Origin: Selaginella tamariscina | Taxonomy: Eukaryota > Streptophyta > Lycopodiopsida > Selaginellales > Selaginellaceae | Length of the DNA stretch: 64,000 nucleotides | Assembly: GCA_003024785.1 (NCBI GenBank) | Contig: PUQB01000788.1 | Coordinates: forward strand, 1-64,000 | Direction: 5' to 3' | Shown here: positions 29,886 to 64,000 of the stretch, piece by piece | Layout: every line of letters starts with the position of its first letter | How positions within the stretch are numbered: position 1 is the first letter of the stretch | Translations under genes and position numbers: made by a program | Notes under the pieces: generated by a model | The model's database searches: none | Told to the model about the DNA's origin: nothing | The model's input: only the letters and a program-made list of their open reading frames with translations

Positions 29886-30416
29886 TCCTATACATTTACA
29901 TAAGTTGTACCTAAACCCTAAACCCTAAACCCTACTGCACATTTATATAAGTTGTACCTAAACCCTAAACCCTAAAACACAATAGGGTTTAGGGTTATAT
30001 GTATTTAAATAAATATGATTTCATGTAGGTGGTCGAACTAGTGATATTAAACAATGATATAATATATGAAGTATATAATGACATAATATATTATATTATA
30101 TTCCATAATTGAATATTTAACATTATATTATAAAACAAAAAATAAATATCTTTAGATACTAAAAATGTTGGTGTTCTAGATCCTAACCAAGGAAACACCA
30201 AAGGTCTATAAACACTTTTAATTAAGGTTCATTTTTTCATATATGTTGTACAATTTCTTTAATGTTATGAACTTTTAAGAACACGATCAAGAGAACCAGT
30301 TGAAAGATCCCATGCTCAAAGGAAACTCTATAAGTCTTTAAACACTAAGTAAATCAATTAATTTAGATAAATCAATTAAGTAAATAAGTAAATTGATTAA
30401 GTAATTAATACATGGA
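29886..30416. other. Interstitial telomere-type repeats and AT-rich DNA
   Basis: Two short tracts of CCCTAAA (about 29911-29934 and 29956-29974) sit in a tandem duplication of about 45 bases, with an inverted TAGGGTTTAGGGTT at 29982-29996. They lie just upstream of the PPR start and may act as telo-boxes. The remainder to 30416 is AT-rich. Confidence 0.65.
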
Positions 30417-31640
30417 GCTCCGTTCAGAATCCTTCATTGTATGCTGTTAAGTGCACAACACGCCAGTGCCATGTGCAACACTATCTAAACTTGCTCCTTG
30501 TCAAACTCCTTCAGCCTCTTATCTACTGTCTCCATTAGAGTCCCTTGCTCCTGCATTTTCCATATCCAGTCAAGTCTCTGAGTCTTACCAGGTCTTGTGG
30601 TGGTACTCACCAAGTGTGGTTAGTTCTGCTAGAAACTGATGCTCATCTCTTCCTTCACATCCCTGAGAACCTTCACTGCAAGTGTCTCACTCGACATTGT
30701 AGCTTTGTAGACTCCTTCCAAATCCACCTCTTGGCTGAAGCCCTTTGTAGCAGCGTACATGACTGAATAACTAGGGATGGTTAATGCACCCTTGCGAATA
30801 CAATAACCGAGTTAGCATAAACAAAAATAAGACAGCAAAACTGATTAAGAGATATGTCGATGCAACTTGCAGGTACCTCGGCATCGAAACTGTCGAAGAA
30901 CACAGTGAGATGAAAAGTTCCAACTCAGGACCCTGTGAATATCATTTGCCTTCCGGTGGAGACAGAGAATCCGATATAACTCTTTGCTAGAAGAACAGCA
31001 GCAGGATCCTTATCCAACGTTTTGTTTAGCAGGATCTTAACACGGGCTTGTTCGAAAGATGTATTAGAAAGTCCCACTTGTACAGTGTTGCTGGTACCAC
31101 TATAATCTATCCGTGCATAGAGAGTGAAATTGGAGTAGAAGTGAGGGCAGTGAAGAATTTGCAACAGAACTAATACCATTCACGTCGATGCCGATGTGTC
31201 TGACCAAAGTCTTGCTCGTCTTCATTCGCAGAGCTGTCAAAACTCCACAGCAAAGAGATGGTTATCTGGCCGTCCCAGCCGCAAGTACATTGCAGTAGCA
31301 TTTGTTGAGGGCATAAGGGGAATGCTATTCCATCTCCTTGCTCGGTGTTGTTGGATATCTAGAATGAGAAGAAAGTGGTAAAAGACGCCTCCATTGTAGT
31401 GGATCCTTGGAAAACAGACGATCGAATTGAAAGTTACCTCCTGCAGTGAGGAGTACACCGGTACCGTCCGGAGTGAAACTCGTCTTACCGGTGAATATGA
31501 CATCGTCCTTGTTAAACGCAGGTGCGAAAGAGAAGGTGAACTCGCACATTACTCCCTGCTTGTCAACAAGGAGAAGCAACATCTGCAACAACATAAGTTT
31601 CTTCATAACTCAGATAAAAGTATGTGATTACTGTTCTTTT
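30417..31640 (-). pseudogene. L-type lectin receptor kinase pseudogene, kinase core deleted
   Basis: Read on the minus strand it starts with a signal peptide (MKKLMLLQMLLLLVD) and a legume-lectin domain (FTGKTSFTPDGTGVLLTAGG, HLFAVEFD, then YSNFTLYARIDYSGTS). It then passes to the juxtamembrane and N-lobe region. About 480 bases of the kinase core present in the related copy at 44.2-46.2 kb are missing: the sequence jumps from the N-lobe straight to the C-lobe end near 30600. Several frame changes also occur in the lectin part. L-type lectin receptor kinases are plasma-membrane sensors for defence and development. This copy cannot make one. Confidence 0.85.
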
Positions 31641-32085
31641 CTCTCCAACAACAATATGCTACATAGAAACCAGAACTACATATGTACGCTCTTTGATATA
31701 GTTGCTGAAATAAAAAGCATCTTGACATTTCTCTGGCTCTCGTCGTAATGCCCCTGTAATTCAACGTTTTGTTCAATTGTACTCACGGACACATCGTATT
31801 CTTAATCTGTAGCTCGTTAGAAAGACAATTATTAAGTTATATATGTTTTAATATTTTTATCAAATTAACTTATATAGTGCCATGTGGTTAAAACAGTAAT
31901 TTAATTAAGTATTATGGAGCATCATTCATAAAACAGACAAACATATACAGTATATATTTATCTCTTTGCTCAAAAAATGTATTGAAAATTTTACGCAACT
32001 ATTTAATAAAATATAAAGTATTAAATAAAATTTAAAATTGAAATCAAATGTGAGCCATTTAATTAAAACATATTTTTAATATAAT
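30417..32085. repeat. Left arm of a large inverted duplication
   Basis: The segment from the kinase tail through the lectin part and into the AT-rich upstream flank matches 43590-45990 in reverse orientation. The non-coding match includes a GTTTTAATTAAATGG motif and a TAATACTTTATATTTTATTA motif in both flanks. The whole upstream flank was therefore copied, not just a transcript. Confidence 0.8.
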
Positions 32086-40764: not shown

Positions 40765-42454
40765 TGTCAGAGTTTTAACTCAAGGGCCAACACGTGGCTG
40801 CCAAGTGGCTATTCGGTGTCATCACCATGTGTGAACAACGTAAGTCTTCCAAGATAACCCTAAGAGTCTGACTCAGGGGCCCAATTAGGCAAAAGACTTA
40901 GAGTCCTACCTTAAGTCCCCTAAATGACAATCCCCTGAACCTTAGAGGATAACCCGAGTAGACTTTAGGATCCTGTCCTAGTAGACCTAGACAGGCTCAT
41001 GCCCTAACCTCACAAAGGAGATGTGTCTCACACATACCCCATGACAGAGCTAAGGCATCGTCACTTACCCCTCGAGGAATCACCCTCATCCGGAAGTACA
41101 ACCCTTTAGGGCGACAATGGTACCCTGAATCATGACTAACCCTTAAGGGTTTGAATGACCAAGTCATACCCTAGACCTAGGGCTAGTACTTAGTGAGGAC
41201 ACGAGTGTGCGCCGTAGGTGGACATGAGTGTTCTGTTAAGCAAAATCCCTAAGGCTAGGTTGAATAACCCTAAGTACATGACCTTGTGAGTGTCTCATGA
41301 TAGGGCTTTTGCTAATGAGCTTAGGTTGTTCAACCCTTAATCCTAAGGAGAACACCCCCTAGCCAGGTGTGCCAAAGCACACCTAGTTACGAGACCTAAC
41401 CTCCCTTGAGCGAATGCTCAAGGTTTAGCACCCTAGTGCAAACACAAGCATGTATGTTTACTAGAGTATCCAACCCCTTGGAAAACCCATGACACAACCC
41501 CAAAGGGCGTGCCTCGGGTTGTATCGTGTGACGTCTAGCCCAGTGTCACATCTCCATGTGACACTGCCTTCCACGATGTGGGCTATCATAGCCCTTTAGA
41601 TTCGAGAGTTGCACCAAGTGCCACAAATGTGGCCCCTAAATGCCAACTCTAGAACCCCTTAGTGAACCCTCAGGAACTAGTAAGTGAACCTGTCAAACAA
41701 GATCCCACACCCACAGCCAGTCAAGGACACGGATGTGCCTTGCTTGGCCATGAGTGCTACACCTAGCTTGACGTGGAGGAAGAGGCTGGAGACAAGCCAC
41801 AACCTCTGCCTCTTGGAACGTGCATCCCGACAAGACCTCTCAGGCATGGATTCGCCAACGTTAAGGGTAAGCTACCCCGAAGGTGGGACGTACCCCTATT
41901 ATCTGGAAGTTAGGGCGGCACAACAAAGGGTTGTACCTTAACAGCTAAAGCTTGCACCGACAGAAGACAACGAACTTAGTCATGAACCCATGCTCTCCTA
42001 CGTATACTCTACCTTATTTATGTGACGGAGCCCCCCCCTCTTTTCCTGTATGTGTAAGTGGGTGGCACGGAATGCCAGCCCCTTAGTTAATGAGATGAGT
42101 TTGCACACTAACCCCTACCCCTAAACCCTACCCAAAGGGTGGGGGTTTTAGGGCTTGTGGTTAGGGCAACCCTAGGGTTAGGTCAACCCTAGGATGTTCC
42201 TAACCCTATTTAACATGCCAAACTCATATTAACTAGGACGTCAAAATTGGGGGTGGGTTTTCTAAAAGGTAAGTGCTACCTTTGCTTAGAGTTTCTCGCG
42301 ATATCTAAAGATAGCCGGCCGAACTACTCCTAAACACCTAAGTGCACTAAGCAGGGCTGTTTCTCATTACATCTAGGGTCCGTCAATATAATACAGTAGG
42401 TAACAACAGTCAACGTTCAAAGTAAAGGGTCAAGTCATAGTAAAAATTATGATA
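40765..42454. mobile_element. LTR-like dispersed repeat, copy 2 (probable solo LTR)
   Basis: This 1.69-kb block is collinear with 13605-15170. It starts TGTCAGAGTTTTAAC and ends at a TAAAAATTATGATA motif equivalent to the other copy's end. A phrase of about 30 bases (CCAATWAGGCAAAGGGCYAA) lies just outside both ends, at about 40721-40749 and 42468-42496. No polyprotein is next to it. It looks like an old solo copy. Confidence 0.6.
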
Positions 42455-46182: not shown

Positions 46183-47222
46183 TGTAGCAAGTTTTACGTG
46201 TTTTTACATATGTATTTGTATGTACAAATACATATGTACGTTGTATGTTCTGCTTCGAGCATAAAACATTAATTAAATTATTGTTTGACCACAGCGCTCA
46301 AACCTTTTAATTAGATTTGAACAATTATTATCCTAACATCGTAATAGTAACATTAAAAGGTTTAAAATGAGCTACATACGTATATAATATATATAGAAAG
46401 AAAGCTTACACACATGTTATTCAAGAGACCTTCCAGCTTAATCAGTTTTTGACAAGGGTGGACAAGGGTTATTTTATATTGCATTGTTACATGTTGTATG
46501 GAATTATTTTAAAACGTAGACTTCTCTATCACAAAATAATTAGTTAATTTTAAAATGGTTTTTAGTGAAGTATACCTTTAATTCTTAAGGTATCTTTTGG
46601 TTACATAAGATGCCTGCTCCACGGGTAACCTGTGTAAATATATATAAATTAATTTGGACCATAAGATTAAACGTGTAGCAAACATCTGGGTTACAATGTG
46701 ACATGCATGTGATGTAAAATGGTTTCCTCACAAGTGGTCATGTGATGTAAAATGATTTACTCACGAGAGTAAATATGGTCACAGAATGTAGTAAATTAAA
46801 TTTTAATTAATTTTACTTCAGTTATACTTAAATAAGTGGAGCCAGAAAGGTTATATTTTTGAGTAAATTAAACTTATTTACATATTTAGTTACCACCGGT
46901 GGTAACTAAACCACTGGTGGAGATGCTCTTAGTCATCCAATGTATTGCTCTATATTAGAAATTCTTATTTGTAAACATGTTTAAAAAAGATAAGTTAAAT
47001 TACAATTGAGTTAAAGGTTAAATTAAAAGTTAAGGGTCTAATTTAAGATAAAGATAAATTCATCATTGTTAAGGATAAGGATTATTAAATAATTAGACCA
47101 TGAATAAAATTTTCAAGTTAAAGATAATAATTAAGCTAAGGGTTTAACTTAAAAATAAATTCATTAAATTAAAAATAATAACTCAGTTAAGAGTTAACAG
47201 CACTAACAACTACTATGCAAGT
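46183..47222. other. AT-rich flank with a palindrome and a minisatellite
   Basis: A 26-bp palindrome lies at 46885-46910. From about 46990 to 47210 a degenerate unit of about 53 bases (TTAAGGATAATAATT, GAGTTAAAGGTT, AACTTAAAAATAAATTCATTA) repeats. The same unit lies beyond the far end of the 47.2-62.1 kb element. No gene is seen. Confidence 0.6.
46885..46910. repeat. 26-bp perfect palindrome
   Basis: The half-site TTTAGTTACCACC is followed directly by its reverse complement. Its outer parts (TTTAGTTAC and GTAACTAAA) equal the outer bases of the terminal repeats of the neighbouring element. Confidence 0.85.
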
Positions 47223-47241
47223 TGTAACTAAAATGGGCATG
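47223..47241 (+). repeat. Left terminal inverted repeat
   Basis: TGTAACTAAAATGGGCATG, matching the inverse of 62123-62141 at 18 of 19 positions and the start of a second copy at 63055. Confidence 0.75.
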
Positions 47242-47719
47242 GCTATAGTCCCATTTCCTAATAATTAGCAATTTTAGCTATTTAATTAGCATTTTCTAAT
47301 ATTAAAGGAATATTCTTTAGAATATATGTTTGAAAAGAGAATATTCTTTAGAATATTCTATTTTGTATTCTACCCTTTAATAAATTATAGCATTCATTGA
47401 ACAAAAATTAATAACATTAAAAAGTAGAATGTATTAAATTATATAATATATTGCCTAATATAACAATTAAGGAAGAGCATAAGAGGTACATTATATAAAT
47501 ATTGATGTTGTTATTAAAATATTAATATTTAAATATAACATTATTAATTAAAAATTTGTAGTAGTAATAATATATATATAAATCCTATAATAATATAGTC
47601 AATCTTCCATATCATTTTTTAAATTTATATAGTTAAGTATACAATTTGGTACTATTATTAAAGAGTTTATAATAATTATGAATATTAAATATATGATATT
47701 TTATAATTTTGTAATTGCT

Positions 47720-50700
47720 TTAAGCTTCAGAAAACATACATTCCCTTGCAGTTTTGTTAATCGTGACTTTATCAACGCTTCTTGACATCCACCCATATCG
47801 AATGGATTTAACATTTATAAAACATGCTGGGTCTTTTTGATTGGGAGACCATGTTTTCTCTAGGCATCCATTATATCTTTCGCTCTCCTTCTCGTGTCGC
47901 CTTTTTTGTGGTTTGAACCATGCAACCTTAACAATACTATTTTTTGTGATTACTTCAGGTGTGTCGATAATTTGACCCATCCAAATAGGCTGATTATATG
48001 ACGCATCTGGAGTAATGAGAACCATCATTAGTTTTTGAAGATCCTTGCAGCAATCAAAGTATGCTTTAGGTTTTTGGTTCCTTTGTCCAACAAAGTGTGG
48101 GGTTTGCACTTCCACATCACTACTGGCTTCTATGTCGTCTGTGCTCAGTGATGTCATTTCAATCTCCTCTCGCCACCTTGTTTTAGGCCAGAAAGGGTGT
48201 TGCAATTCTGTACTTGTGACAGTAGGCCCTTCCAACTCTCGAACAACAGTCTCCCAATAGTTGACCACATGCTTATATAGTTCTGAGTAACCAGTTGCCT
48301 TATCAGAATTCTTTGGCATCGATTTTTGAACCCATGCCACATATTTTTTGATGCCATCAATAATAACCTCTTGTTCCTTGAGCTGGGCACTCAATGGAAT
48401 AGGGTCTGGTTGTCCTTCTGGGAGAAGTGGCTTTCCATCCTCTCCACTTTTGAAGAGCATTAAGCCCTCTTTCGGTAACCACTCCTGCTCTGATGGCCGT
48501 AACTTGTACTGCATAATAGGTATACCATCTCGTATGGAGAAAAAGAATTGTAGCGGCACAAGGTGACCAACTAAAGAATCACTCCCTTCTTTTATATACT
48601 CCTTGAGAAATTTTTTGAAGTCTGGCACCTCAGTCACAAGCAAAGCACAACTTTTTTTGGAGATGCAATTTTCAAAAAGATTCATCATATGCGGTAAGGT
48701 AAGTGCACTTGTCCTTTTTGTAGAGTTGGAGACCTTGCTGAAGAACGCATCAATATCTTCATGAGTGTGACCAACCATAAGGAAACTGAGCGTGATTGTT
48801 TCAAACACACCTTTGGCAACAAGCATTGACAAGTATGCTAGCACATATCTAGAAAATAAAAGTAAGTATGAGCTTGAGAAACCCTTAAGTAAAATGATTT
48901 ACCTATTTTTGTTCTCGCCTGCACAATTATCCATCTGTAAAAGCAAATGACGAGGAAGCTTATTTGATGTTGAGGACACATGTACACTATTTGAGCTAGA
49001 TCCCTCCACTGAACCTGAACTCTCAACAGGGCCATCTGTTTTTTGTGCAGGTTGCTGACAATGCCTCTCATATTCCCAAGTAGCCTCAAGTGCAGACGTG
49101 TTCATGAGAGCATTATGTAAAGGTTGAAGGTGTTGTTTCTTCACTTTGAGATCACTGATAGGACTTGTCTGTGAGTGGGCTTCAAGGTTTCTGAAACACA
49201 TGGCTAACGACCCAATAGTGAAATTGGAGTCGCTAGACCAATGTGGAAGTGAAAAGTGTCCATATGACTCACAACCGTGTCCATGTGTTAGCACACCTGT
49301 CAATGAAATCGGAAGTTTCATGACATTTCCAAGGCACTTTGGTGTTGCAAAGAGCTTTGGAATGCTGGTCTTTGAATGATCCATCTTGTCATGGATCAAG
49401 CACAGGTACTCTGATGGGCGTGACACAGAAAGCATGCGGTGTGCATAGTACTGAGACCGGCAAGTTTGTTGTGCAATCATGTGGGCCTCCATCTTCCTTT
49501 GAATGGTAGTGATCTCCACCAAGGTTTTTGCACAAGCCTCTGCAGCCTTCAATGATGTACAAGTGTCACACTTAGAAAAGCTAGAGTGTTTTGCAATCTC
49601 CACATCCTTAAAATGAGTATTCCATATGTTGTTGAAGGTACCAGTGCAGATTGCTTGGAGCCCCATCAAACTGAGGCACTTGTTCACATGTTCACACAGT
49701 TTCAATTGAGTGTAGATTGAAGGTAAAACCTTGAGATTTTCCCTGACCCCTGCATTTGTGGTTCGGCATTTGTGAGGCATCCTGTCTGCATTTGCTTCCA
49801 CAAAAGCCTTGAGTATCTCTATGGCTGCCATGATGTGAGAGCGGGTTTTGACCAAGCAGTGTTCCCATGAACTGAGGTTCGCGCTCCATCTAGCCACTCA
49901 TCCCTCCGACGGTAGAACGTGGTCTTTGGGATCCCGTATATACTGTACCAAGCTTTGAAGCAGATGGCCACCTTATTAAATACCATGGATGTACTCTGAT
50001 AACCTGTGTCCGAGGCCATTCCATCAATACACCCAGTTAGTGCAGCATATACAAACTCATGCCTTTGCTTTTGGGTGAGCATACGAAAGACATGTCTACA
50101 TTGGGTAATTTCATTCCGGTCTGCCATCTGACAACACTTCTTCTTGCAACAGTCAATCGTGGAAATGCTCGTAACACTTTCGGAAGATGTAGGATCCATC
50201 TTTACCCTCTTGCTGAAACTTGCAGGGGAAGATCTACAACCCATGAATCGCCTTTTTCTTACAATAGGACCAATGCAAGGAACCTCTTCAAATATGAGTT
50301 GTTCTTCCGGGTTGTTATTATTGAAATCCAACCCAGAATATGTTGAACCATCTTGCCGTCTTAATTCAGATGTTCGCCACCTCACGAGGGATCCAGGATA
50401 CAATGTGCCATTAGGTGAAACCTCTGTCACAACTACACCCACGAAGTCGGACCCTAGTTTCTCTTCTGACACTGCTTCCATTGGATTTATAGCTGTGATG
50501 ATGCCTCTTCCGACTTCAATCTCACGAAGAAAGAGAATCACCTCATCCATCACAGCAGGCAAGCCATCATCTGGTAAACTCGTGCTACTATTTGTTTGTG
50601 ACTCTGCATATTTTGTGTCAGCCTTGACTTCATCCAAATTCCACAATACAGGAGAACCCTCCTCAAATTCCATTCCCAGAACCTCAACATGCTTGTAAAT

Positions 50701-50838
50701 GGTGTTCACCCATACGTACACACAAGATCCTTGGGAAATATTGTGACATGATGCATTATTATCTCGAACTTCCACAGTTCCAGTGCCAACTATCTCGTTG
50801 TTCCGAAGAAGACATACTTTATCTCCAGTATTAAACAT
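47720..50838 (-). CDS. DUF7869-family transposase-like protein
   Basis: About 1,030 residues starting MFNTGDKVCLLRNNE (50838). An exon ends at 48903, a 54-base intron (48849-48902) follows, and the second exon runs to the stop at 47720. The N terminus has two small barrel-like segments (VGTGTVEVR and GVVVTEVSPNGTLYPG). A basic region IPKTTFYRRRDEW and NADRMPHKCRTT precede a CDTC pair. Then come LIHDKMDHSKT, LLLQMDNCAGENKNRYVLAY and SFLMVGHTHEDIDAFFSKVS, the hallmark DUF7869 blocks. The three acidic positions and spacing suggest an RNase H-like DDE/D site (inference). The C terminus has a WMGQI...VAWF...W-S-P module. The frame changes once near 49850. It is transcribed away from the first palindrome array, which ends 150 bases upstream. 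Confidence 0.85.
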
Positions 50839-50989
50839 ATTGTCCTGCACATAAATAATTGTATTTATGATATCTGTTTATGCAATATTTTTAAGAAATC
50901 TGAATTACGGTTACTTAATAATATGCATATGCAATAATACATAATTATGTTTAGAGATAATATCTCATGTTTGATTAATACAACTGATG

Positions 50990-51970
50990 GGCGGGATTAA
51001 TCCCGCCCACGAATCCCTCCGACGAGGAACGGTCGGCGGGATTAATCCCGCCGCCGACTCAACCCCTTCGGAGAGAGTCGGCGGGATTAATCCCGCCTTG
51101 GACTCCCTCCGACAAGGAAGAGCCGGCGGGATTAATCCCGCCGCCTCTTCCTCTCGGGGGAGTCCGGCGGGATTAATCCCGCCGACTCTCTCCGACGAGG
51201 AAGGGAGTCCGGCGGGATTAATCCCGCCGCCGACTCCCTTCGGAGAGAGTCGGCGGGATTAATCCCGCCGGACTCCCTCCGACAAGGAAGAGCCGGCGGG
51301 ATTAATCCCGCCGCCTCTTCCTCCTCGGGAGAGTCGGCGGGATTAATCCCGCCGACTCTCCGACAAGGAAGAGCCGGCGGGATTAATCCCGCCGACTTCT
51401 CCTCGGGGAGTCCGGCGGGATTAATCCCGCCGACTCTCTCGACGAGGAAGGGAGTCCGGCGGGATTAATCCCGCCGACTCATCCTCGCCGGAGAGAGTCG
51501 GCGGGATTAATCCCGCCGGACTCCCTTCCTCGTCGGAGGAAGAGGCGGCGGGATTAATCCCGCCGGCTCTTCCTTGTCGGAGGGAGTCCAAGGCGGGATT
51601 AATCCCGCCCACAATTCTTACGACGGGGAATGGGTGGCGGGATTAAACCCGCACATAACTCTCTCCAAAACTATGATTTCAAAGAGATCTCGGGATAAAT
51701 CCTGTCCCCAAATCTTTAAAACAGGAAGTGGTGGCGAGATTAATCCCGCCACCCCTTCCCTGCCTCCTAAAATGGTTGGCGGGATTAATCCCGCCGACAA
51801 CTCTTTCTAATAAATTCTGGTAACTCTTCATCAGTTGAGAAGGTTATCGACGGGATTAATCCCGCCACTCTTTTTCAGTGGCGGAGAAGCATTGCCCGGG
51901 AGATGGTGGCGGGATTAATCCCGCCACTTCTTCAAAGAGGCGAAAAAGAAATGGCCGGATTAATCCCGCC
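50990..51970. repeat. Palindrome array 1 (about 22 copies of an 18-bp palindrome)
   Basis: GGCGGGATTAATCCCGCC recurs every 40-50 bases, perfect in roughly 15 copies and degenerate toward 51970. Spacers of 22-30 bases derive from one GC-rich phrase (CTCCCTCCGACGAGGAAG) and appear in both orientations. The array is GC-rich inside AT-rich DNA. Because each unit is its own reverse complement, both strands read GGINPA in one frame; this is a by-product and not a protein. Position: directly upstream of the DUF7869 gene. Confidence 0.97.
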
Positions 51971-53570
51971 GCCCGGTTAACCTAGAATATTAAGTTAAAA
52001 GGATATTTAAACGGATAAATCCCTAACGGAATATATTATAATCCTAATGCATTTCTAAACCCCTAAATTGTAATTTTAAGAGAGAATGTAAGAGAGTGAA
52101 TCTTAATAAGTATTTTTAAATTTGTTTATAATACTTACTTGTAAACAGCACTGAAGGCGCCGTGCTTTCCTATAAAGAATAGCACCCAATTTAATCTCGC
52201 TCCTGAGATGATCACTATGAAGAAAAAAGAAGATCTAAAGAGTGAAAAATACAGAAATGAAGAAACCCTTGCCGGAGAAAGAACCAGATCTGAATTTGAG
52301 TGGGAAATTAAATGCATTTTCAAATTTACATGTCAGACCGACAATACATATGTCAGAAATTCAAATTTTTTAAAAAGAACAGAAAATAAAATTTAAGATG
52401 AGTTGACACAAATATCCGACACTCTGACATATATACTCTCCAGTTCCAATGAGTATTTTAAAATTGCATTTAATGTTATTCAAGTGATTCAAGCTGTTTA
52501 ATATTACGAAATTTTAGACTATATTCTACATTCTTAGTATTCAAGTATATTTATATATATATATATATATATATAAATATATACTTATACAATAAATAAA
52601 TTGATATATTATTATGTATCATTTAAAATATATTCATAGTCTGTTTATTATTATTATTTTCTTAATTACTCGAGTATTTAGTTTTCATTTCCTAGTATCA
52701 ATGGGATATTCTTTAATATTTTATTAATATTTGAAGAATATTCTAATATTAAACCTGATTATCATAATTAAATTAGTCTTGTTCTTAATTATTGCAGTAA
52801 TTATTCTACATTTGTATATATTAATGGGATTTTCTCAATTAATTTGTTATTATTTCAAGAATATTCATGTGTTAAACCTTATTATCAATATTAAATTAAT
52901 ACACACTATGAACATATTTTAAATTATACATAATAATACATCATTTTATCTAATATATAGTCATATATAGTTTAATAATATATATATTAATATCATTTCC
53001 TTAATTACTTGAGTAATTAATCTTCTTTATATTAATGGGATATTCTTTATTATTTTCTTATTATTCCAAGAATATTCCAATATTAAACATGATTATGATA
53101 ATTAATTTAGTTAATTATTTGAGTACTTAATTTACATTTGTATATATTAATGGGATTTTCTCAATTAATTTCTTATTATTTCAAGAATATTTCAATGTTA
53201 AACCTTTTTATCAATATTAAATTAATATATATTATTAAAACTATATATGGCTATATATTAGATAAAATCATATATTATTATGTATAATTTAAAATATGTT
53301 CCTAGTGTGTTTATTAATTTTATTTTCTTAATTATTCGATGTTTGTTTTGCACACATATATAAACACAATCATAAATTTACACACGCATTACAAGAACTT
53401 ACAAAAACACATATGCACACACATGCACAACCCTAAACCAAACTGAAGAAATAGTTGCTTCTTTATTGAAAACATCATGTTCAACGCATGTATGATATAT
53501 GTACTCAATCTGGTGATGTATGTAACACATTGAATTTACATGTGTAATATTTATATTAAGCTTGTTGGGA
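51971..53570. repeat. AT-rich segment with four tandem units of about 125 bases
   Basis: Between 52690 and 53230 the phrase ATGGGATWTTCT ... AAGAATATT ... GTTAAACCTTATTATCA recurs four times, alternating two subtypes. A (TA)n tract lies near 52550-52580. A minus-strand frame around 52135-52323 and a plus-strand frame at 52208-52396 have no recognisable content. Confidence 0.65.
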
Positions 53571-54285
53571 GCAAACCCTAAACCCTAAACCCTAAACCCT
53601 AATATGTAACACAATGAATTTACTCATGTAATATGTATGTATGTCTGTGTGTATACACGTGTGCATGTATATATGTGTACTCTGTATGTATATATGTGTA
53701 CTCTGTATGTATATATGTGTACTTTCTGTCTTCTCTCATACATACACACCATGCATGATCCATGTTAATATGTACTGTCTCTCTTCTCTCAAACATACAC
53801 ACCATGCATGATCTATAATATGTACTCGGTCTCTCTAATATTATGTACTAATATGTATGTATGTCTGTGTGTATAATACACACCATGCATGATCCATTAA
53901 TATGTACTGTCTCTCTTCTCTCATATACTATGTATGTATATCTGTGTATAATATGTGTAAGTATATATGTGTACTAATATATGCAATGTGTACAAAAATA
54001 ATTTTTCAACACTCTCTCTTCTCTCATACATACACACCATGCATGATCCATCCTAAATCCAAAACCCTAAACCCTAAACCCTAAACCCATGTAATATGTG
54101 TGTATGTCTGTGTGTATACACGTGTGTATGTATATATTATGTGTATTAATATATGCAATGTGTATGTATGTATTGTACACATGAAACTTTAACACTCTCA
54201 TGGACACACACATGTTAAATCCCTGCATGATTTATATTTTTGAGGTGTATGTGATACACCCACGCACACGCACGCGCTAATAATA
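53571..54285. repeat. Telomere-type tracts and CACCATGCATGATC repeats
   Basis: Four CCCTAAA units at about 53574-53600 and three or four at 54061-54087 bracket a region where ACACACCATGCATGATCCAT and a CTCTCTTCTCTCATACATAC phrase recur four or five times among TG/TA runs. Confidence 0.75.
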
Positions 54286-54289
54286 TAAT

Positions 54290-54476
54290 GAAAGAATATT
54301 CGTTTAGGGCGAATCTATATTTTATTCTTTTTAGGGTTTAAGTATATTCTCAGAAGGAATATTCTATTAGGGTTGATATATATATTTAATTCCTTTAGGG
54401 TTTAGGTATATTCTTAGGGTTTCAAGAGGCGGCGGCTGTGAAATCGGCGGCGGCGGCTGTCCACACAGGTGAGATC

Positions 54477-54480
<4 letters not shown>
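54290..54480 (+). promoter_or_regulatory. Telo-box-rich putative promoter and first exon
   Basis: TTTAGGG/TTAGGGTT motifs occur four or five times (54304-54422) in three similar units that each also contain an ATATTC motif. A GC-rich stretch (GGCGGCGGCTGTGAAATC) follows and ends at ACACAG/GTGAGATC, a good donor site. It could be the untranslated first exon of the plus-strand gene at 57.4 kb, with array 2 in its first intron. Confidence 0.4.
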
Positions 54481-54507
<27 letters not shown>

Positions 54508-54751
54508 ATATGTATAGGAGTGTGCGTATAATTTTATTTATTAGTTTTATCTCTCGCACACACACGCACACTCCTGTGTATGTATATGTGTTGTGGGTGT
54601 GTGTTTGTTTATCTGTATGATTTTATTTGTTTCGCTCACACACGCATACACACGATATACATATACACATATATATATATATACCTATATACATATATAC
54701 ATACATATATTATGTGTACCAGTATCTGTAAATTTTTTTTATTGATCTTGC

Positions 54752-54817
<66 letters not shown>

Positions 54818-55497
54818 GTGTACCAGTATCTGTAAATTTTTTTTTATTGATCTATATATCTATATACACACATATATATATGTGTGTGTTTTCTGTATAA
54901 TTTTATTTATTTATTAGTTTTATCTCTCACACACACACGCACACTCCTGTGTATGTATATGTGTGTGTGTGTGTGTGTTTGTTTATCTGTATGATTTTAT
55001 TTGTTTCGCTCACACACGCATACACACAATATACATATACACATATATATATACCTATATACATATATACATACATACAACACTAGTTTATATATATGCT
55101 TATATATTCACAGACTCTCTCTATTTCTCTATAGATTATATATCTATATACACACATATATATGTGTGTGTTTATCTGTATAATTTTATTTATTTATTAG
55201 TTTTATCTTTCGCACACACACGCACACTCCTGTGTATATATATATGTGTGTGTGTGTGTTTGTTTATCTGTATGATTTTATTTGTTTCGCTCACACGCAT
55301 ACACACGATATACATATACACACATATATATACCTATGTACACACATATATTAGGTGTACCAGTACTGTATAATTTTATTTATTTATCTATCTCTTGCAC
55401 ACACACGTACACTCCTATACATACATACATACATACATATATATACACACACACATATATATATGTGTGTGTTTTTATCTTGCTAAGCCCCTCGAGC
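54481..55497. repeat. Tandem (TG/CA/TA)-rich repeat, unit about 280-375 bases
   Basis: The block TTTGTTTATCTGTATGATTT ... TTTCGCTCACAC ... ATATACATATACACA ... TATACCTAT recurs from about 54605, 54980 and 55260, with shorter partial units between. Frames across it are repeat translations. Confidence 0.75.
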
Positions 55498-56986
55498 GGC
55501 GGGATTAATCCCGCCGCTATATAGTTGGGGCCATGGCGGCGGGATTAATCCCGCCGCCGAGGCCCTTCAGGCATGGGTGAGCGGCGGGATTAATCCCGCC
55601 GCCGAGGCCCTTCACGCAGGCTATGGGCGGCGGGATTAATCCCGCCGCTCTACGACAAACCGAAGAGCGGCGGGATTAATCCCGCCGCCCATGGCCTGCG
55701 TGAGGGGCCTCGGCGGCGGGATTAATCCCGCCGCTCATCCATGCCCTGCGCGGAATGCGGCGGGATTTATCTCGCCGGCAATGGCCTGTGTGAAGGTTCT
55801 AATGGGCGGGATTAATCCCGCCGGATTCCGCGGGCATTTAGAAGGAATGGGCGGCGGGATTAATCCCGCCGCTCTTCGGTTTGTCGTAGAGCGGCGGGAT
55901 TAATCCCGCCGCCCAGGGAATTCACGCAGGACATAAACGCCGGGATTAATCCGGCCCCACGCTCATGCCCTTCGCGGAGGGCGGCGGGATTAATCCCGCC
56001 GTTCATGTCATGCGTGAATTCCCTGGGCGGCGGGATTAATCCCCCCACCCATCCCTGTTCAAAAATGCTGCAGCCAATATATATGTGTGAGCGTATGATT
56101 TACGAGAGGGCAGCGGGATTAGCCGCCGAACCTTCATTACCCGGTGGCGAGATTAATCTCCGAACCTTCATTATCCCATTGGTATGTTGAATCAATCCCG
56201 CCTAACTCTGTCTGAGACGGAGAAGGTTTACAAAATACCAATGGAGGGAACCGAGAAGGGTGGTGGGATTAATTTCACCATCCCTTACATGGTGGGCGGA
56301 ATTAATCCCGCCGTGTACGCATGCCCTGCGCGGAATCGGGCGGGATTTATCCCGCCGCCATTGGCCTGCCTGAAGGGCCTAGGCGGCGGGATTAATCCCG
56401 CAAGATTTCGCACAGGGCCTGGGAGGCGGGATTCATCCCGCCGAACGCCAATGCCCTGTGCGAAATCGGCGGGATTTATCCGCCGCCATTGGCCTGCCTG
56501 AAGTGCCTAGGCGGCGGAATTAATCCCGCCCGATTCCGCGCAGGGAATTGGCGTCCGGAGGGATTAATCCCGCCGCATAGGGATCGAGTGAAGGCCCTGG
56601 GCGGCGGGATTAATCCCGCCGAGTCTTCAATGCCTGTTGGAGAAATGAATCTCGCCACCCTTCCCTTTTTCCTCCATTGGTGAGTTGGACCAATCCCAAA
56701 CGTTTCTGTCTAAGACGTAGAAGGTTTACAACATACCAATGGAGGGGACTGGAAGGGTGGCGAGATTCATTTAACCATTCATTACATGGTGGGCGAGATT
56801 AATCCCGCCTCCTTTCTGGAGTCACTGAAGGGGTGTGAGAAATAAATCCTGCCCAGTTCTCTCTGAGACCGAGAAGGGTGGCAAGATTAATTCCGCACTC
56901 CCGTTCAAGGCCTCCAGAAAGGTGGCGAGATTAATCCCGCCCACTCTTTCAGGAGGCATTGAAGGGGTGGCGAGATTAATCCCGCC
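55498..56986. repeat. Palindrome array 2 (about 30 copies, more degenerate)
   Basis: This is the same 18-bp palindrome as array 1, with a different spacer family (ATGGCCTGCGTGAAGGGCCT and CTACGACAAACCGAAGA). The latter spacer appears inverted at 55871-55889, and GGGAATTCACGCAGGAC (55917-55933) is inverted near 56010-56025. Units beyond 56100 decay to GGCGAGATTAATCCCGCC and similar. The array ends about 440 bases before the start codon of the plus-strand gene. Confidence 0.95.
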
Positions 56987-57427
56987 GCACCTTCCATGTG
57001 AATATATATGTGTATTAGTATATATAAGTTGCATATCTCATTTTATTTACTTTTATCATCTTATCATAATATTTCGAGTAAAGCTAGGAAACTATGTAAA
57101 ACTGTCCAGAGCTCACATTTGTGGTGGTTCTAAAACGAAATGTTATCTTTCCTTTGAACTAGCACAAAGGTGAGCTCTGATCCGAGTATAACAGATTTTA
57201 TTTTAATTCTTACCCAGAATTTGACGACGACTCCATACTAATGACTCGATCTCCTTGTTTGATCAAATCGTCCTTCTGCAAAATAATACACTATAAATAT
57301 AAATTATATAAAACGCACACACACTTGTATAAATCCGAATATACAAAAATAATACACAGAGAGAAGTAGACGTAATTAACTGTCCGAAGCTCACATATGG
57401 AAGGTGCGCCGCTACACATGTCTCACC

Positions 57428-60427
57428 ATGAGCTCTGACATTAAAGACAAGAGCAGGAGAAGAGATGGGCAGGGGGATTTGGAATCAACTTGGCCATATT
57501 TTAAGATAAATGGAAAGCGCATTGGAGCAACCATGGTTGCTGTCAAATTAACCTCTGTCACATCTCATGGACAAGCAAAACAATGGAAAGTTGATTCGCT
57601 AGTCAAGCACCCGAAAGCAGGCTGCGACCCAGATTGGACGATGCTCGACAGATATGCCTTGTTCCATCCAATGTCACGTTCTCGGATCCAGAGGTCGTCA
57701 GTTACAACATTAATCTCGGGTGGTTTTGTCGACTTGTGGATAATGATGTTCACGTGTTCACTAATGATGTTTGACCTTGGAGTTCTTCTTCAACTCAACG
57801 AAAGCTCATCTATGGAGGGATCCATCTGGATGTCTACTTCGAAGATCTTCAGACTCATCGAGTAGGTGTATTGTCAGGAGATATTGTTTCACAATACAGA
57901 AAATCAGCAAGTGGAGCAATCTTCCCTCTTGACATTGAAGAAGAACACAGCGACATCATAAGGGAGATTGAGAAGGTGGCTCGGTCTCAGGTTCTCTACA
58001 GATCACGTTCAATTTGCTTAGGAAGTTTCGGGAGCTGGAGGAGTGTGCCGAGAACACTAGAACAGCTGCAGTCGGGGATCACACATGTTGATTCAGATCG
58101 CAAAAGAAAATCATCAATCGTTTTGTCAGCTGCACCTGTGGCATCTCATGCTGCAATAAGTCACAAGGAAATGATGTTGGATGATAAGATTTATCCTTGT
58201 AGGTTAAATATTGCAGCGTCAACCCAAACTTCAATTACAGGCCACTCAACCAGGAACGTGTAGCTGAGCTCATGGAGAAGATGAAGGACGACAATTCTTA
58301 TACCGTTCCACATAATGCTGTTTTGTGTCCATACTATGAAAGAAGGAAGGGTGCTGACAAAGTCTGGATCACAACACCAGAACAACTCATGAAGATTCAG
58401 ACGGAGAATAAAAGATCTATCAAGTACTACATCATTAGTGGCCAGCACACAATAACGGCAGCCCAACGACTTCTCGATGAACACAACAAAGAAACGATGG
58501 CAACAAAACTTTCCGAGCATACCCGTGAGAAGCTGACAAAAAAGATCGGCGTTTTTAGCTAAGCCGAATCTCACAATCGAGCAGTACCATAAGTTATCGG
58601 CGGAATGGGACGCTGCCGACACCAACCACTACAACAGCAAAATATGGGAGAAGTTTAAACACACGCGAGCCGTGTGGGAATCTCTTCAGCGACCACAAAG
58701 AGCTACCGCAGGGAATACACAATCTGCGGAATACCGGGTAAGCAAATTGTTTGGCGGGATTTATCTCGCCGGTATATTAATCTGTCTTTTTCCTCAGAGA
58801 GTTGAAGAAATTGCAGCAGTTGATTTTGCCCAGGTGGGCGGGAAGGAAACATCATTTCTGATGATGTTGATTTCTTGCCCCGAAGATAGGATCTTTGCCA
58901 AATGGTTGGGGATTATGGAATCCTTTTCAAAAGGAACACTGAAGAAGAAGCAGACAAGTGAAGGGGAGCCCTCAGAAAAGTCTGCAAAGAAACCCAGTAA
59001 GACACCGAAGGCTAAGTCTGTTCAATCTACAAAGGATGTAGACAACGATTTCAAGCTCACATGGTTGAAGCCTTTAAATGGAACAACGATGGAGGAGATG
59101 GAAGTCTGGCTGATTTGGTGATCGATGGCAAACTACAAATTAATAACAGCAGCCCAACCTCTCCTTTTCATCTCAAGGCAATGGAGTGAAGACAGTCAGG
59201 CATTTCAAGGAGTGGTTGGGAATACACTGCCACAAACTGGGTTGGACCTCGACTTCAACATATGAAGAGGTTAGCAAATATTTGCATGTGACGAACGATG
59301 ATATGCTTGTCGAATGGGTGAACCAATCGGAAGATCTAGGCAAGAATCTATTGCACGCCAACGCCAAAAGGAGAACATTGGGATGACGCCTTCTCTTATG
59401 GCAGTCCTTCAGCAGCGGAGAACCGAATTGAACCTTATAAAGGAGGATGCTACGAATCACGACAAGCCCTACAGATGTTTGTTGTTAGATTCGGAGACTT
59501 TATGGGGTAACATCACTGCTTGTAGGAAACCGTTTCAATTGTTCGTGATGGATCGGCGGGTGTCAAAAATCTTTCGACAGATAGGGCACTAAAGGATCTG
59601 GTGGAGAAACTTAGCCGTGCAAGCATATACATAGAAGGTATTTATTATTGAATTCATGCTTGCGCTCTTCACTGATACCTACTTTTTCAGGTATTTATTT
59701 CTTGATTCTTGCTCATGTCACCGATACTTTTGCCTTCGCCTTCGCAGAAGAATAGACATCGTTGGACAGGATTTATATGAACGATGCTAATCCCAAGTGC
59801 ATTGATACTGTTGTTCACTTGGTTGTTAGGAATGCGCCAAACAATTTCAAGCTTCCAAATGACTGGCCAGGCATCTGTTTGCACTCCAACGGCCCTGAAC
59901 CTCCATCCGATACACCGATAGGTATGAGTGACGTATTCGGCAATGTACGTTATCCAAACATTACAAGTCAAGCGGCACGGAGCATCGTCAACTTGATCAG
60001 GGGTCCTCACAGTGATGCGTGGGTTTTTGACTACTGCACTAGGGGGGTCTTGAAGGAGTGTTACCTTCGGCATACATGTGTGTTTGCCGTTGAGAAGGAT
60101 AAGACCATGGTTGAGGACCTGAACAAGTGGATAGATTGGGTCTCAACTGAGTACCCAACGATCATAAAGGCGTATTTGAGAAAGTTCCTCCAGATAAGTG
60201 CGATAGCTCTGAAGGTTGAATCTGGTTCAATCTCGGAGTCTGAGAACGAACTTCAATCAGATATTAGACCGGAAGTTATCTCGAGGAGTACAGAACATTC
60301 GCACACTCCAGGACCCATGGAAACATCAATAGAAGATGCAGAAGATCTTGAACCATCTCACAAGCGGCTTAGACCTTCTTCGCCTCACTCAGAAGGTAAT
60401 AGCGAAGAAGAATTGATAATGAATTGA
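57428..60427 (+). CDS. ParB-like and derived methyltransferase-like protein (unnamed, frame interrupted)
   Basis: Start ATG at 57428 (MSSDIKDKSRRRDGQGDLES). The gene runs about 3 kb with at least two introns, 58738-58797 and one near 59638-59690, and several frame changes, so it is probably eroded. Near 58425-58480 YYIISGQHTITAAQRLL resembles the G-x-H-R/T core of ParB/Srx-like domains. A Lys-rich linker (SEKSAKKPSKTPKAKS) follows. From 59470, CRKPFQLFVMD and later HLVVRNAP, then AWVFDYCTRGVLKECYLRHT and CVFAVEKDK (60015-60105), follow the order of beta-class amino-methyltransferases. In those the AdoMet motif is C-terminal, but here its FxGxG is replaced by YCTRG, so activity is doubtful. 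The tail is acidic, with a nuclear-type KRLRPSS. Family placement is inference. Confidence 0.45.
58753..58770. repeat. Degenerate array palindrome inside an intron
   Basis: GGCGGGATTTATCTCGCC, two differences from the array consensus, lies within the 60-base intron 58738-58797, isolated from both arrays by more than 1.7 kb. Confidence 0.85.
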
Positions 60428-60682
60428 TAGAGTGATGAATAGTTGTAAATGAGTGTAACATAAGGCATTTTTGTATTTTTTTTATATTTGTACAGAAAAT
60501 AAATTCTCAAGGATTAATGAAGCTTTTAGTTCAAACATGGGTCACACATTAACAAGGTAAATAATATACCTTGATAATTTTAAGGTCAGCTAATTATCAT
60601 TTTGCAGATGTAATGAAATAATTGAGAACATGGATTTTCAGCATTGCCATGAGGTAAGAGAGGGGTTTGGCGACAATTTCTT

Positions 60683-61862
60683 GTGCCACATGTCAGAATG
60701 ACAGAGTTCATGCAGGAAATGGATAATAATGCAGCTCAAAACATCGTTACCATGGGGGCCACTTCATCATCATTTTTATTGGCTTCAGTTCCGAAATCAA
60801 TTTCTTCAGCGCATGCAATATCTGAATCTTGTAAGGATGATGTACAATTAAATGATGAAGGGATAGGCAACGAATAGTGGCAACGGATAAATGTGAAAGG
60901 GAGCAAACAAGTGATTTGCAAAGTATTCAAGAGGCAACGCTATCTCATGTTACTCATGGCCATATTGTGTTGTTGGATGTCAATGGTGTTCTGCTTCATC
61001 GACAAAGGCCCGAGGATAGAAAAAAGAAATCAAACAAGGAGATTTCATTCCTTGTCATGGTAAATTTCGATATGATATTATTTTTCGTCCAGGGTTGGAT
61101 CGTCTCTTTCAAAAGCTTAAGGAGATGGGTGCGCTTGTGGGGATTTGGTCATGCATGCAGATTCATAACTTAACACCGCTGTTGAGTTTACTTAAGAAAC
61201 ATTGTAGTGTTGCAGAAGAGGTGATTCGTAAAGATTGGATTTTTGACCAGCGAATGTGTCATAAACCTCTCGAATTTCACAATATAAGAAAGGAAAGCAA
61301 GCCATACTTCTTCAAGAATGAAAGAATAATTTGGGACTCATGGGAGATCAGTCGCTTAAGGATAACGAAGAATGCACATATCTTAGTAGTAGACGACTCT
61401 CCTCAGAAGGCTATGCTCAACCAAAACATTGCTTGTATTCATCCAATCACTTTCGATCCATATTCTGATACCGATATCATGGATGAGCTAGTGAACTACT
61501 TGGATACGTGCCTCAGAAAGAAGAATCTCGAAAATTTTTGTGAGCAGTATCCACCGTATCATACATTTCCTGAAGCTTTTCTTTCTCGTGATATTGAATT
61601 TTATAAAATGAAGGATAGCAACCGGGCGCTTTATAATATTATTCTTAAGGAACGTCAGTTTTTAGATGAGCCTTTATGCAGACCTTCTCTTATCACATCT
61701 TATGTATTAACAAGGATGGCAACTCCCAATTGCATTCGTGAGAGTGTTAAGTGGTGGCAACAACATCAAGATATTGACCAAAATGATTTGATTAATCCGG
61801 AGAGTGATGATTTAGACAAAATGAAAAGATTTCTTTGTATGATAGAAAGAAAGTATTTATAA
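60683..61862 (+). CDS. FCP1/NLI-interacting-factor-like HAD phosphatase
   Basis: HAD-superfamily proteins of this branch remove phosphate from Ser/Thr, classically in the RNA polymerase II tail. Visible blocks are HIVLLDVNGVLLHR (motif I, near 60960; D-x-N-G-V, with Asn at the second acidic position as in plant DLNGVL members) and then IIFRPGLDRLFQKLKEMGAL, VGIWSCMQIHN and HILVVDDSPQKA (motif IV). A long tail contains DQNDLINPESDDLDKMKRF and ends at 61862. The lead-in at 60683-60877 (MTEFMQEMDNN...) is in another frame, and the frame changes again in an A-run near 61020. The gene is thus probably damaged or needs small introns. It ends 280 bases from the right terminal repeat, and is duplicated with it at 63.3-64 kb. 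Confidence 0.75.
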
Positions 61863-62122
61863 AAAATTAACATGTTGATAAGAAAATGATTTCATTTGTA
61901 ATTATGTTTGATAGTATTTCTTCATTATTGTAAACTATTTTTAGAATAATATGAATATTCTAAGATATTTTAGGAATATTCCTTACTAAGTAAGGTTATT
62001 GAAGGATTAATTAATTAATTAATTAATATTTAAGGCTTAATTACATATTAATTAAATGATTAATTAATAATTAAAACTTAAGTATTAATTAGTAATTTAT
62101 TTTATATTCCCATTTCACGTAT

Positions 62123-62141
62123 CATGCCCACTTTAGTTACA
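62123..62141 (-). repeat. Right terminal inverted repeat
   Basis: CATGCCCACTTTAGTTACA, the inverse of the left end with one mismatch. Confidence 0.75.
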
Positions 62142-63054
62142 CGATACTTTAAAAGTCATTAATAATTAAGTTCATACATGGGTAACCTAAGAGTTTAAGA
62201 ATAAACTAAACAATATAACAATTAAGATTAAGCACACTTATGATCATCATAAATTATAAACCCACATGGTACTATTGGAACCATTAAATCAGACATGAGT
62301 CACATGGGTGCTCAAGGATAAATTCATTAAGTTAAGAACTGGATTAAGGGTCTAGCCTAGAAATACACATACCAAGTTAAGTAATAACATGGTTAATTAA
62401 GGGTCATTAAATACTTAAGCCTAAACATGTATGAGCAGTGATATATGCTGTAGTAAAAAAATGTTATGGATTAGTAATTAAATAGATTAATAATTAGTAA
62501 CTAATAATTAAATTAGTAATTAAACATTTCCATAACATTTTTCGACTACGGATTTAATCACTGCTTATGAGACAACTTGGTTAAAAGTCATTAAATAGTT
62601 AAGGCCATACATAATAACTTAAGGATAAACTCACCGATGGGTTAAGCATCTAGCTTAAAAATAAATTCATCAGATTAAAAATAATAATTGAGTTAAAGGT
62701 TCAACTTAAGAATAAACTCACTAGGTTAAGGATAATAATTAGCTTAAGGAATAAATAGTTAAGCATAAACATGGATACACATAAGAGCTTAAGGAAATTT
62801 ATCATGTTAAGGATAACAATTGAGTTAAAGATTTAACTTAAAGATAACTTTGTTAGGTTAACAATAACAACTGAGTTAAGAATCTAGATTATAAATAAAT
62901 TCACCATGTTAAGAATAATAAATGAATTAAGAATTTATTAATTAATAAATTATTTATTCAATAATTAAGGCCATCAACCGTGTACATGTGTACTAATGTG
63001 TGTGTGTGTGTATTAGGATAGAGTATAAGTGCGGGATAAGGGCAATATGCACGT
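62142..63054. repeat. AT-rich minisatellite between two inverted element ends
   Basis: The degenerate unit of about 53 bases (GTTAAGGATAATAATT, GAGTTAAAGGTTTAACTTA, AAAATAAATTCATCA) repeats at least six times from about 62310 to 62940. It is also present at 46990-47210. A short (TG)n lies at 62998-63011. No gene is seen. Confidence 0.75.
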
Positions 63055-64000
63055 TGTAACTAAAGTGGGCATGATACGTGAAAATGGGAATATAAAATAA
63101 ATTACTAATTAATACTTAAGTTTTAATTATTAATTAATCATTTAATTAATATGTAATTAAGCCTTAAATATTAATTAATTAATTAATTAATCATTCAATA
63201 ACCTTACTTAGTAAGGAATATTCCTAAAATATCTTAGAATATTCATATTATTCTAAAAATAGTTTACAATAATGATCAAATATAATTACAAATGAAATTA
63301 TTTCCTTATCAACATGTTAATTTATTTATAAATACTTTCTTCCTAACCATACAGAGAAATCTCCTCATTTTGTCTAAATCATCACTCTCCGGATTAATCA
63401 AATCATTTTGGTCAATATATTGATGTTGTTGCCACCACTTAACACTCTCACAAATGCAATTGGAGTTCCCATCCTTGTTAATACATAAGATGTATAAGAC
63501 CAGGTCTGCATAAAGGCTCATCTAAAAAATGACGTTCCTTAAGAATAATATTATAAAGCGCTCGGTTGTTATCCTTCATTTTATAAAATTCAAAATCATG
63601 AGAAAGAAAAGCTTCAGGAAATGTATGATACGGTGGATACTGCTCACAAAAATTTTTGAGATTCTTCTTTCTGAGGCACGTATTCAAGTAGTTCACTAGC
63701 TCATCCATGATATCGGTATCAGAATATGGATCGAAAGTGATTGGATGAATACAAGCAATGTTTTGGTTGAGCATAGCCTTCTGAGGAGAGTCGTTTACTA
63801 CTAAGATATGTGCATTCTTCATTATCCTTAAGCGACTAATCTCCCCATGAGTCCCAATTATTCTTTCATTCTTAAAGAAGTATGGCTTGCTTTCCTTTTT
63901 ATATTGTGAAATTTGAGAGGTTTATAACACATTTGCTGGTCAAAAATCCAATCTTTACGAATCACCTCTTCTGCAACACTACAATGTTTCTTAAGTAAAT
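63055..64000 (-). mobile_element. Second, inverted copy of the element (runs off the window)
   Basis: Starting with TGTAACTAAAGTGGGCATG at 63055, the sequence is the reverse complement of 62141 downward to about 61190, including the AT-rich end and the phosphatase tail. Identity looks around 95 percent by eye. The two copies thus face each other tail to tail across 913 bases. Confidence 0.85.
63309..64000 (-). pseudogene. HAD phosphatase, second copy (partial)
   Basis: Matches the C-terminal two thirds of the first copy: HILVVNDSPQKAMLNQNIAC, CRKKNLKNFCEQYPP, DQNDLINPESDDLDKMRRF. The motif IV aspartate pair reads ND instead of DD, changing a metal-binding position. The frame breaks near 63490. 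The gene continues beyond the window. Confidence 0.75.

Follow-up and report, generated by a model that had tools for sequence, protein, structure and literature searches.

Two arrays of an 18-bp palindrome at the 5' sides of divergent genes in a putative DNA transposon of Selaginella tamariscina

What maintains a perfect palindrome of 18 base pairs (bp) in dense arrays next to two divergent genes? The question is raised by a 64,000-nucleotide stretch of DNA from Selaginella tamariscina (assembly GCA_003024785.1, contig PUQB01000788.1, positions 1 to 64,000 of the forward strand; hereafter the window), the open frames of which include PPR, protein-kinase and pectate-lyase frames and give it the look of plant nuclear DNA. 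The two arrays would be internal to a mobile element of about 14.9 kb at 47223-62141 (14,919 bases), and the genes, designated gene A (47720-50838, minus strand) and gene B (57428-60427, plus strand), are divergently oriented, as an earlier note on this DNA had stated. The explanation favored here, to which we assign a probability of roughly 0.45, is that the arrays would serve as internal cis-regulatory targets of a DDE DNA transposon, bound by a dimeric protein that is encoded by the element itself and would act in the manner of the VANC proteins.

A search with at most three mismatches gave 45 matches to the palindrome GGCGGGATTAATCCCGCC in the window, 28 of them exact, where 0.01 are expected by chance and none of 100 shuffles contained more than one. 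Forty-four of the 45 matches lie within two arrays, to which no strand is assigned: 21 in array 1 at 50990-51970 and 23 in array 2 at 55498-56986. The remaining match is at 58753. The array ends match exactly those in the earlier note, and the observation of the arrays is thereby confirmed. When up to five mismatches are allowed, the window contains 53 copies, 51 of them in the arrays (22 in array 1 and 29 in array 2) and one each at 58753 and, isolated, at 23155. The figure of about 50 copies of a perfect palindrome that had been given is therefore right for the arrays only if degenerate copies are counted, the exact copies being 28. The core of array 1 (50990-51609) is homogeneous, with all of its 15 copies exact, and is followed up to 51970 by a degenerate tail in which two of seven copies are exact. 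In array 2 the core (55498-56046) contains 13 copies, 10 of them exact, and the degenerate tail, which extends up to 56986, has 16 copies with a single exact one. A recurrence every 40-50 bases, as originally described, is found in the cores, where the start-to-start spacing is 38-47 bases (mean 43.0) in array 1 and 40-48 bases (mean 44.3) in array 2, but not in the tails of either array, where the spacing is irregular. The core spacings span 3.6-4.6 turns of 10.5 bases and no helical phasing is claimed. Nor can a case be made for a coding role, the frames of array 1 being open for at most 110 amino acids on the minus strand.

In both cores the palindrome is more conserved than the spacers. 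None of 270 palindrome sites in the core of array 1 carried a substitution compared with 16 of 341 spacer sites (Fisher p 1e-4), and in the core of array 2 the numbers were 5 of 234 and 45 of 307 (Fisher p 1e-7), p values that are to be taken only as a guide. The tests were performed on substitutions alone, with the 27 gap columns in the spacers of array 1 and the 18 in those of array 2 excluded. Palindromes were scored against the consensus and spacers against their nearest relative, a choice that works against the difference. The palindrome is identical in the two arrays despite core spacers that are only weakly alike between them, with 6 of 14 array 1 spacers above the 95% level of shuffled sequences; the tail spacers share a clearer unit (4 of 7 above that level, the best pair being 51751 and 56942). 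Over the 51 array copies, positions A7, T8 and A11 are invariant, T12 varies once, the central T9 and A10 vary three and four times, respectively, and G5 is the most variable position with seven changes. The substitution counts support the proposal in the earlier note that selection may act on a binding site for a dimeric protein, and the symmetry of the palindrome would fit binding by a dimer. The counts bear also on an alternative that involves no protein, in which neutral, satellite-like expansion occurs because the palindrome promotes its own duplication, by hairpin formation, template switching or two-way recombination, and conversion keeps the copies uniform. Duplication of whole units predicts equal change in palindrome and spacer, whereas the change observed is unequal, and the location of the arrays at the 5' sides of both genes is left unexplained.

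Neutral expansion does, however, agree with the arrangement of the spacers, which are present in both orientations and include pairs that are 100% identical as reverse complements (51098/51565 over 27 bases and 55647/55871 over 22 bases). This two-way recurrence, newly noticed here, makes array 1 an imperfect inverted repeat of large size: the part at 51036-51652, which has no strand of its own, is 85% identical to its own reverse complement over 646 columns, with the center near 51344. This structure, too, is in line with neutral expansion, as is the isolated two-mismatch copy within gene B at 58753-58770 (plus strand). The variant of that copy, GGCGGGATTTATCTCGCC, occurs in the window only there and at 55759, with 0.00 occurrences expected; the two copies also share the following two bases, 20 bases in all, and have no likeness beyond. 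The 58753 copy lies inside a 60-nucleotide stretch with intron-like ends (58738-58797), which may be an intron, and the frame is open across the stretch as well. Copying of the unit itself, which the earlier note had named beside selection, thus obtains some support from the shared variant and from the two-way spacers. With the two strands of the palindrome identical, recombination between copies can turn the intervening spacers around or double them, and recombination between symmetrical copies would be the simplest account of the two spacer orientations. As an explanation of the arrays as a whole, expansion without a binding protein is regarded as unlikely.

How are the arrays placed with respect to the genes? 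The probable start codon of gene A, at 50838, is supported by three of seven aligned homologs that begin within a few residues of it; the near end of array 1 lies on its 5' side at a distance of about 150 bases. Array 2 likewise lies on the 5' side of gene B and stops about 440 bases short of the first methionine of that gene as read here (57428). The description of the arrays as lying just upstream of two genes therefore stands as far as the 5' sides are concerned, but splice-like signals suggest that both arrays may be located in leader introns rather than in promoters. For gene A, a donor CAA|GTAAGT at 52138 and an acceptor GTGCAG at about 50845 would place array 1 in the first intron, behind a possible leader exon at 52139-52300 (minus strand). 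For gene B, the donor CAG|GTGAGA at 54469 would likewise place array 2 in the first intron, preceded by a possible leader exon at 54400-54468 (plus strand). The upstream limits of both exons are arbitrary.

A location at the 5' sides of both genes would also be expected if a dimeric transcription factor of the host binds the palindrome and drives or times the transcription of both genes. By inspection, the palindrome contains the cores GGCGGGA, GGATT and TTAATCC, which we take to resemble those of E2F, type-B ARR and WOX factors, respectively. However, the perfect palindrome is one base off the plant E2F consensus WTTSSCSS, and 18 exact bases in 28 copies would hardly be needed for a host site. 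A scan with WTTSSCSS yielded 21 sites in the window, six of them in the element; the sites within the array bounds are at 51624, 51891 and 55775, one of which overlaps a palindrome copy, and a site at 58750 overlaps the isolated copy in gene B. Control by a host factor is given a low probability.

If the arrays are parts of leader introns, they might instead act at the level of RNA by forming long double-stranded hairpins that affect splicing or feed the small-RNA machinery of the host. The possible leader exons are in favor of this idea, as is the predicted folding energy of the array 1 core: as minus-strand RNA, 50980-51620 reached -601.4 kcal/mol compared with a mean of -304 in 20 shuffles (z -43). 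In addition, the array 1 spacers are partly self-complementary, with a mean identity to their own reverse complements of 0.61 versus 0.50 after shuffling; the values for the array 2 spacers are 0.52 and 0.48. The flanks of the palindrome were examined for covariation. Three of 20 flank positions (10 per core) were complementary above shuffles at 0.02-0.035, namely offsets 1, 7 and 10 of the array 1 core at 0.020, 0.022 and 0.035, whereas 11 of the 20 were complementary at or below the shuffled mean and none of the 10 positions in the array 2 core fell below 0.16. Selection for longer hairpins is therefore not indicated, and covarying flanks were rejected as hairpin evidence. Symmetry beyond the 18 bases is thus not generally held by compensating changes. 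Furthermore, no Rfam family reached its gathering score in 47000-64000, and hairpins do not need the same 18 bases in both arrays. A role of the arrays in RNA is considered quite improbable.

That the arrays belong to an element is indicated by its ends. The left terminal inverted repeat, TGTAACTAAAATGGGCATG at 47223-47241 (plus strand), and the right one at 62123-62141, which reads TGTAACTAAAGTGGGCATG on the minus strand, are 19 bp each, as expected of a DDE DNA transposon with terminal inverted repeats. Within three mismatches the 19-mer has three matches in the window, one at each end of the element and one at the terminus of a second copy, at 0.03 expected; in a looser control, which accepted inverted matches of any 19-mer between equally long stretches elsewhere, 18 of 19 bases were reached in 7 of 187 pairs. 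The second copy is the right end of another element at 63055-63999 (minus strand), an inverse copy of 61187-62141 with 95.2% identity that faces the first element and whose similarity stops at the terminal repeat TGTAACTAAAGTGGGCATG. Inspection by eye revealed no clear target-site duplication at the inferred ends, where a CACTA/EnSpm element would have one of 3 bp. The arrays are 3.8-4.7 kb and 5.2-6.6 kb away from the ends of the element, and neither the palindrome nor a half-site (up to one mismatch) was found between the genes and the ends, so that the arrays are not an end-binding array. Between gene B and the right end, an open frame at 61020-61862 (plus strand) encodes an NLI-interacting-factor-like phosphatase (NIF; Pfam PF03031, E 8e-9), which may be cargo or belong to the family as a regular component. 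A counterpart of the NIF frame, divided among several frames, lies in the second copy that faces the element.

Gene A encodes 1,021 amino acids when read through, in two coding exons with one frame break at about 49,830-49,890. On two of its three frames it matches DUF7869 (PF25273) at E 1e-26 and 3e-13, and at least 32 homologs below 1e-3 were found among 7,992 candidates. The five homologs with organism names come from the liverwort Riccia sorocarpa, a mussel, a sea cucumber and a sea urchin, the last of which has two. A homolog alignment and a homolog model display an RNase H-like core with three acidic residues; gene A is DDE-like and, judged from sequence and model, probably encodes a DDE transposase that is flanked by Tudor- and BAH-like parts. 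In the homolog model (P0003), the N-terminal parts appear Tudor/KOW-like and the C-terminal part resembles the chromatin readers EBS and SHL. Targeting to chromatin might thus be built into the transposase, and the Tudor- and BAH-like parts of the modeled homolog hint that the element deals with chromatin. No MULE family was found on the three gene A frames at E up to 1, and no CACTA transposase domain apart from a weak match to TNP1 (PF03017, E 0.15, 12.4 bits versus a cut-off of 21). A DUF7869 pattern matched 22 stretches in IMG/VR, none of which is a relative. No paper naming the family was found in a literature search on DUF7869, nor could the family be placed among the 24 Repbase superfamilies named in an extract of PMC12730594.

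Gene B, 937 amino acids when read through, is broken over several frames and by one stop. None of 7,642 candidates was a relative at 1e-3, and for residues 135-400 none of 1,870 candidates was a relative at E 1. Pfam, NCBIfam, PHROGs, PDB sequences and a phage tblastn search gave no domain match at a usable level. A piece of gene B matched DUF6551 weakly (E 0.12, 12.3 bits versus a cut-off of 26.8), and in IMG/VR one stretch matched the pattern of a piece of gene B and was not a relative. The single-sequence model reached a mean predicted local distance difference test (pLDDT) score of 46.8. The only match below 1e-3 in a viral model library, a phage protein aligned at a root-mean-square deviation of 23.7, was not used. 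By eye, 58203-58559 reads like what we take to be a ParB/Srx motif, and DUF6551 is linked to ParB. On these grounds the palindrome could be viewed as a site of partition or tethering in the manner of parS, to which a ParB-like portion of gene B would bind. However, no significant family, PDB-sequence, phage or homolog match and no confident model stand behind this proposal, which is most improbable. An assignment of gene B as ParB plus methyltransferase, made by eye from motifs, was unsupported by the five domain and sequence resources, the two protein searches and the single-sequence model.

Binding by an element-encoded dimer is preferred among these explanations. Copy numbers far above chance speak for it, as do arrays placed 5' of each of two genes that share one element, the absence of copies between the genes and the ends, the hint of chromatin in the homolog model of gene A, and the similar layout of VANDAL21. 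A further point in its favor is that C-to-T changes within the palindromes show no excess at CG positions, with 5 of 204 CG, 11 of 102 CHG and 8 of 306 other positions affected. The lack of faster decay at CG would be consistent with low CG methylation or with selection but is proof of neither one. In this model, the element, or intact relatives of it, would code for a dimeric protein with the 18-bp palindrome as its binding site; gene B would be the first candidate for the binder and the front part of gene A the second. Dense clusters of sites, 5' of or in the first intron of each divergent gene, would allow the protein to find its own element, and the bound protein would jointly switch the two genes in their expression or chromatin state, its most likely role being anti-silencing in the manner of VANC and VANDAL or autoregulation of transposition. 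Recombination between identical palindromes would account for growth and turnover of the arrays; the symmetry of these palindromes would allow spacers to be inverted and duplicated in both directions, with selection preserving the palindrome itself.

Several points weigh against this model. Gene B, the first candidate for the binder, has no relative and no usable domain match. The substitution counts treat related copies as independent, and conversion favoring palindromes could keep the unit uniform without any binding. The partial self-complementarity of the array 1 spacers is not required by a binding site, and VANC motifs, according to extracts of the papers cited below, lie in one orientation and are not palindromic. 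Only one pair of arrays was observed, and the second element extends beyond the window. Finally, the CpG content gives no clear sign of the methylation state. The observed/expected ratios of the arrays, 1.16 and 1.03, are high because the palindrome itself is rich in CpG, the core spacers alone having ratios of 0.69 and 0.63; gene B (0.73) and the NIF frame (0.70) are close to positions 1-44000 (0.65), and only gene A is low (0.41).

The occurrence of the palindrome elsewhere provides a weak test of the possibility, raised in the earlier note, that the arrays are a generic satellite. The exact palindrome was found in one IMG/VR contig and in 49 stretches among 84,980 prokaryote species genomes, collections that may lack entries from the genome to which the window belongs. 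None of these 50 loci has an array, and two contain more than one copy at up to two mismatches (three in 8 kb and two 201 bases apart). Different contigs of one Prevotellaceae genome account for nine of the 49 prokaryote stretches, in which the palindrome is mostly near the end of the stored stretch and looks like a dispersed repeat of that genome. A literature search did not retrieve a description of an array built of a long perfect palindrome, and the 18-base palindrome was not found in the literature searched, one paper containing the inner 12 bases only.

Other features of the window are noted for completeness. Telomere-like CCCTAAA units form three-unit runs between the two divergent genes, at 53576-53596 and 54065-54085, and two-unit runs at 29916 and 29963. 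Related AT-rich repeats of about 51 bases flank the element outside the inferred ends (46999-47195 and 62643-62935) and are perhaps a preferred target. Two repeated pairs were observed, one direct with 72% identity (13605-15168 and 40765-42452) and one inverted with 77% identity (30576-31986 and 45359-43850). A PPR gene at 27721-29924 is split over frames and may be a pseudogene or an assembly error; given this broken frame, some of the breaks in genes A and B may be assembly errors as well.

To our knowledge, self-recognition by transposons and their escape from silencing are known in few cases. A more far-reaching proposal, put tentatively at clearly less than even odds, is that the element represents an undescribed lineage of DDE transposons, characterized by DUF7869, with a self-recognition of its own. 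It would combine palindrome clusters at both genes, an element-encoded dimeric reader and chromatin-reader-like domains in the transposase into a system of anti-silencing or self-addressing that is independent of VANC and in which the symmetrical site also drives two-way array growth. If this is true, the element would provide an independent system whose simple symmetrical site lends itself to in vitro tests, a second case in which several genes of the same element carry motif arrays, and a function for DUF7869, a family present in liverwort, mollusc and echinoderm proteins.

The closest known systems include DDE transposases and integrases, such as Mos1, PFV integrase and TnsB. Foldback-type elements are defined by long, repeat-rich inverted ends; no such ends were found here, as the distances of the arrays from the termini show. 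In CACTA/EnSpm elements, such as Tgmt* of soybean, the element-encoded protein TNPA binds subterminal repeats with GC-rich and AT-rich parts, as described in the available part of PMC2613891, and the palindrome also has both. However, the CACTA repeats adjoin the ends whereas the arrays are far from them, as the earlier note had correctly emphasized; repeats of this palindrome adjoining the ends were not found, a search that did not extend to other subterminal motifs. Moreover, the ends are TGTAACTAAA rather than CACTA (they read TGTAACTAAARTGGGCATG), and the transposase family differs. The greatest likeness is to VANDAL21, a MULE of Arabidopsis. Its VANC21 protein binds YAGTATTAY, a motif dense in non-coding regions (PMC5735166; PMC10398659, both in extract). 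The motif arrays, which evolve by tandem repeats, lie 5' of VANA and within introns of VANB and of VANC (PMC5735166). The view of the earlier note, which knew of no described plant element with this layout, is too strong, since VANDAL21 has its arrays ahead of the transposase gene and within introns of its further genes. Dense arrays of a short motif in non-coding parts are common to both elements. The differences are a 9-base motif in one orientation, as far as the extracts describe it, versus a perfect palindrome of 18 bases whose spacers occur in either orientation, and a MULE transposase versus DUF7869, no VANC-like protein having been identified in the window. By analogy, the Selaginella element would work like the VANC/VANDAL system but is not a member of it, since both the transposase family and the site differ.

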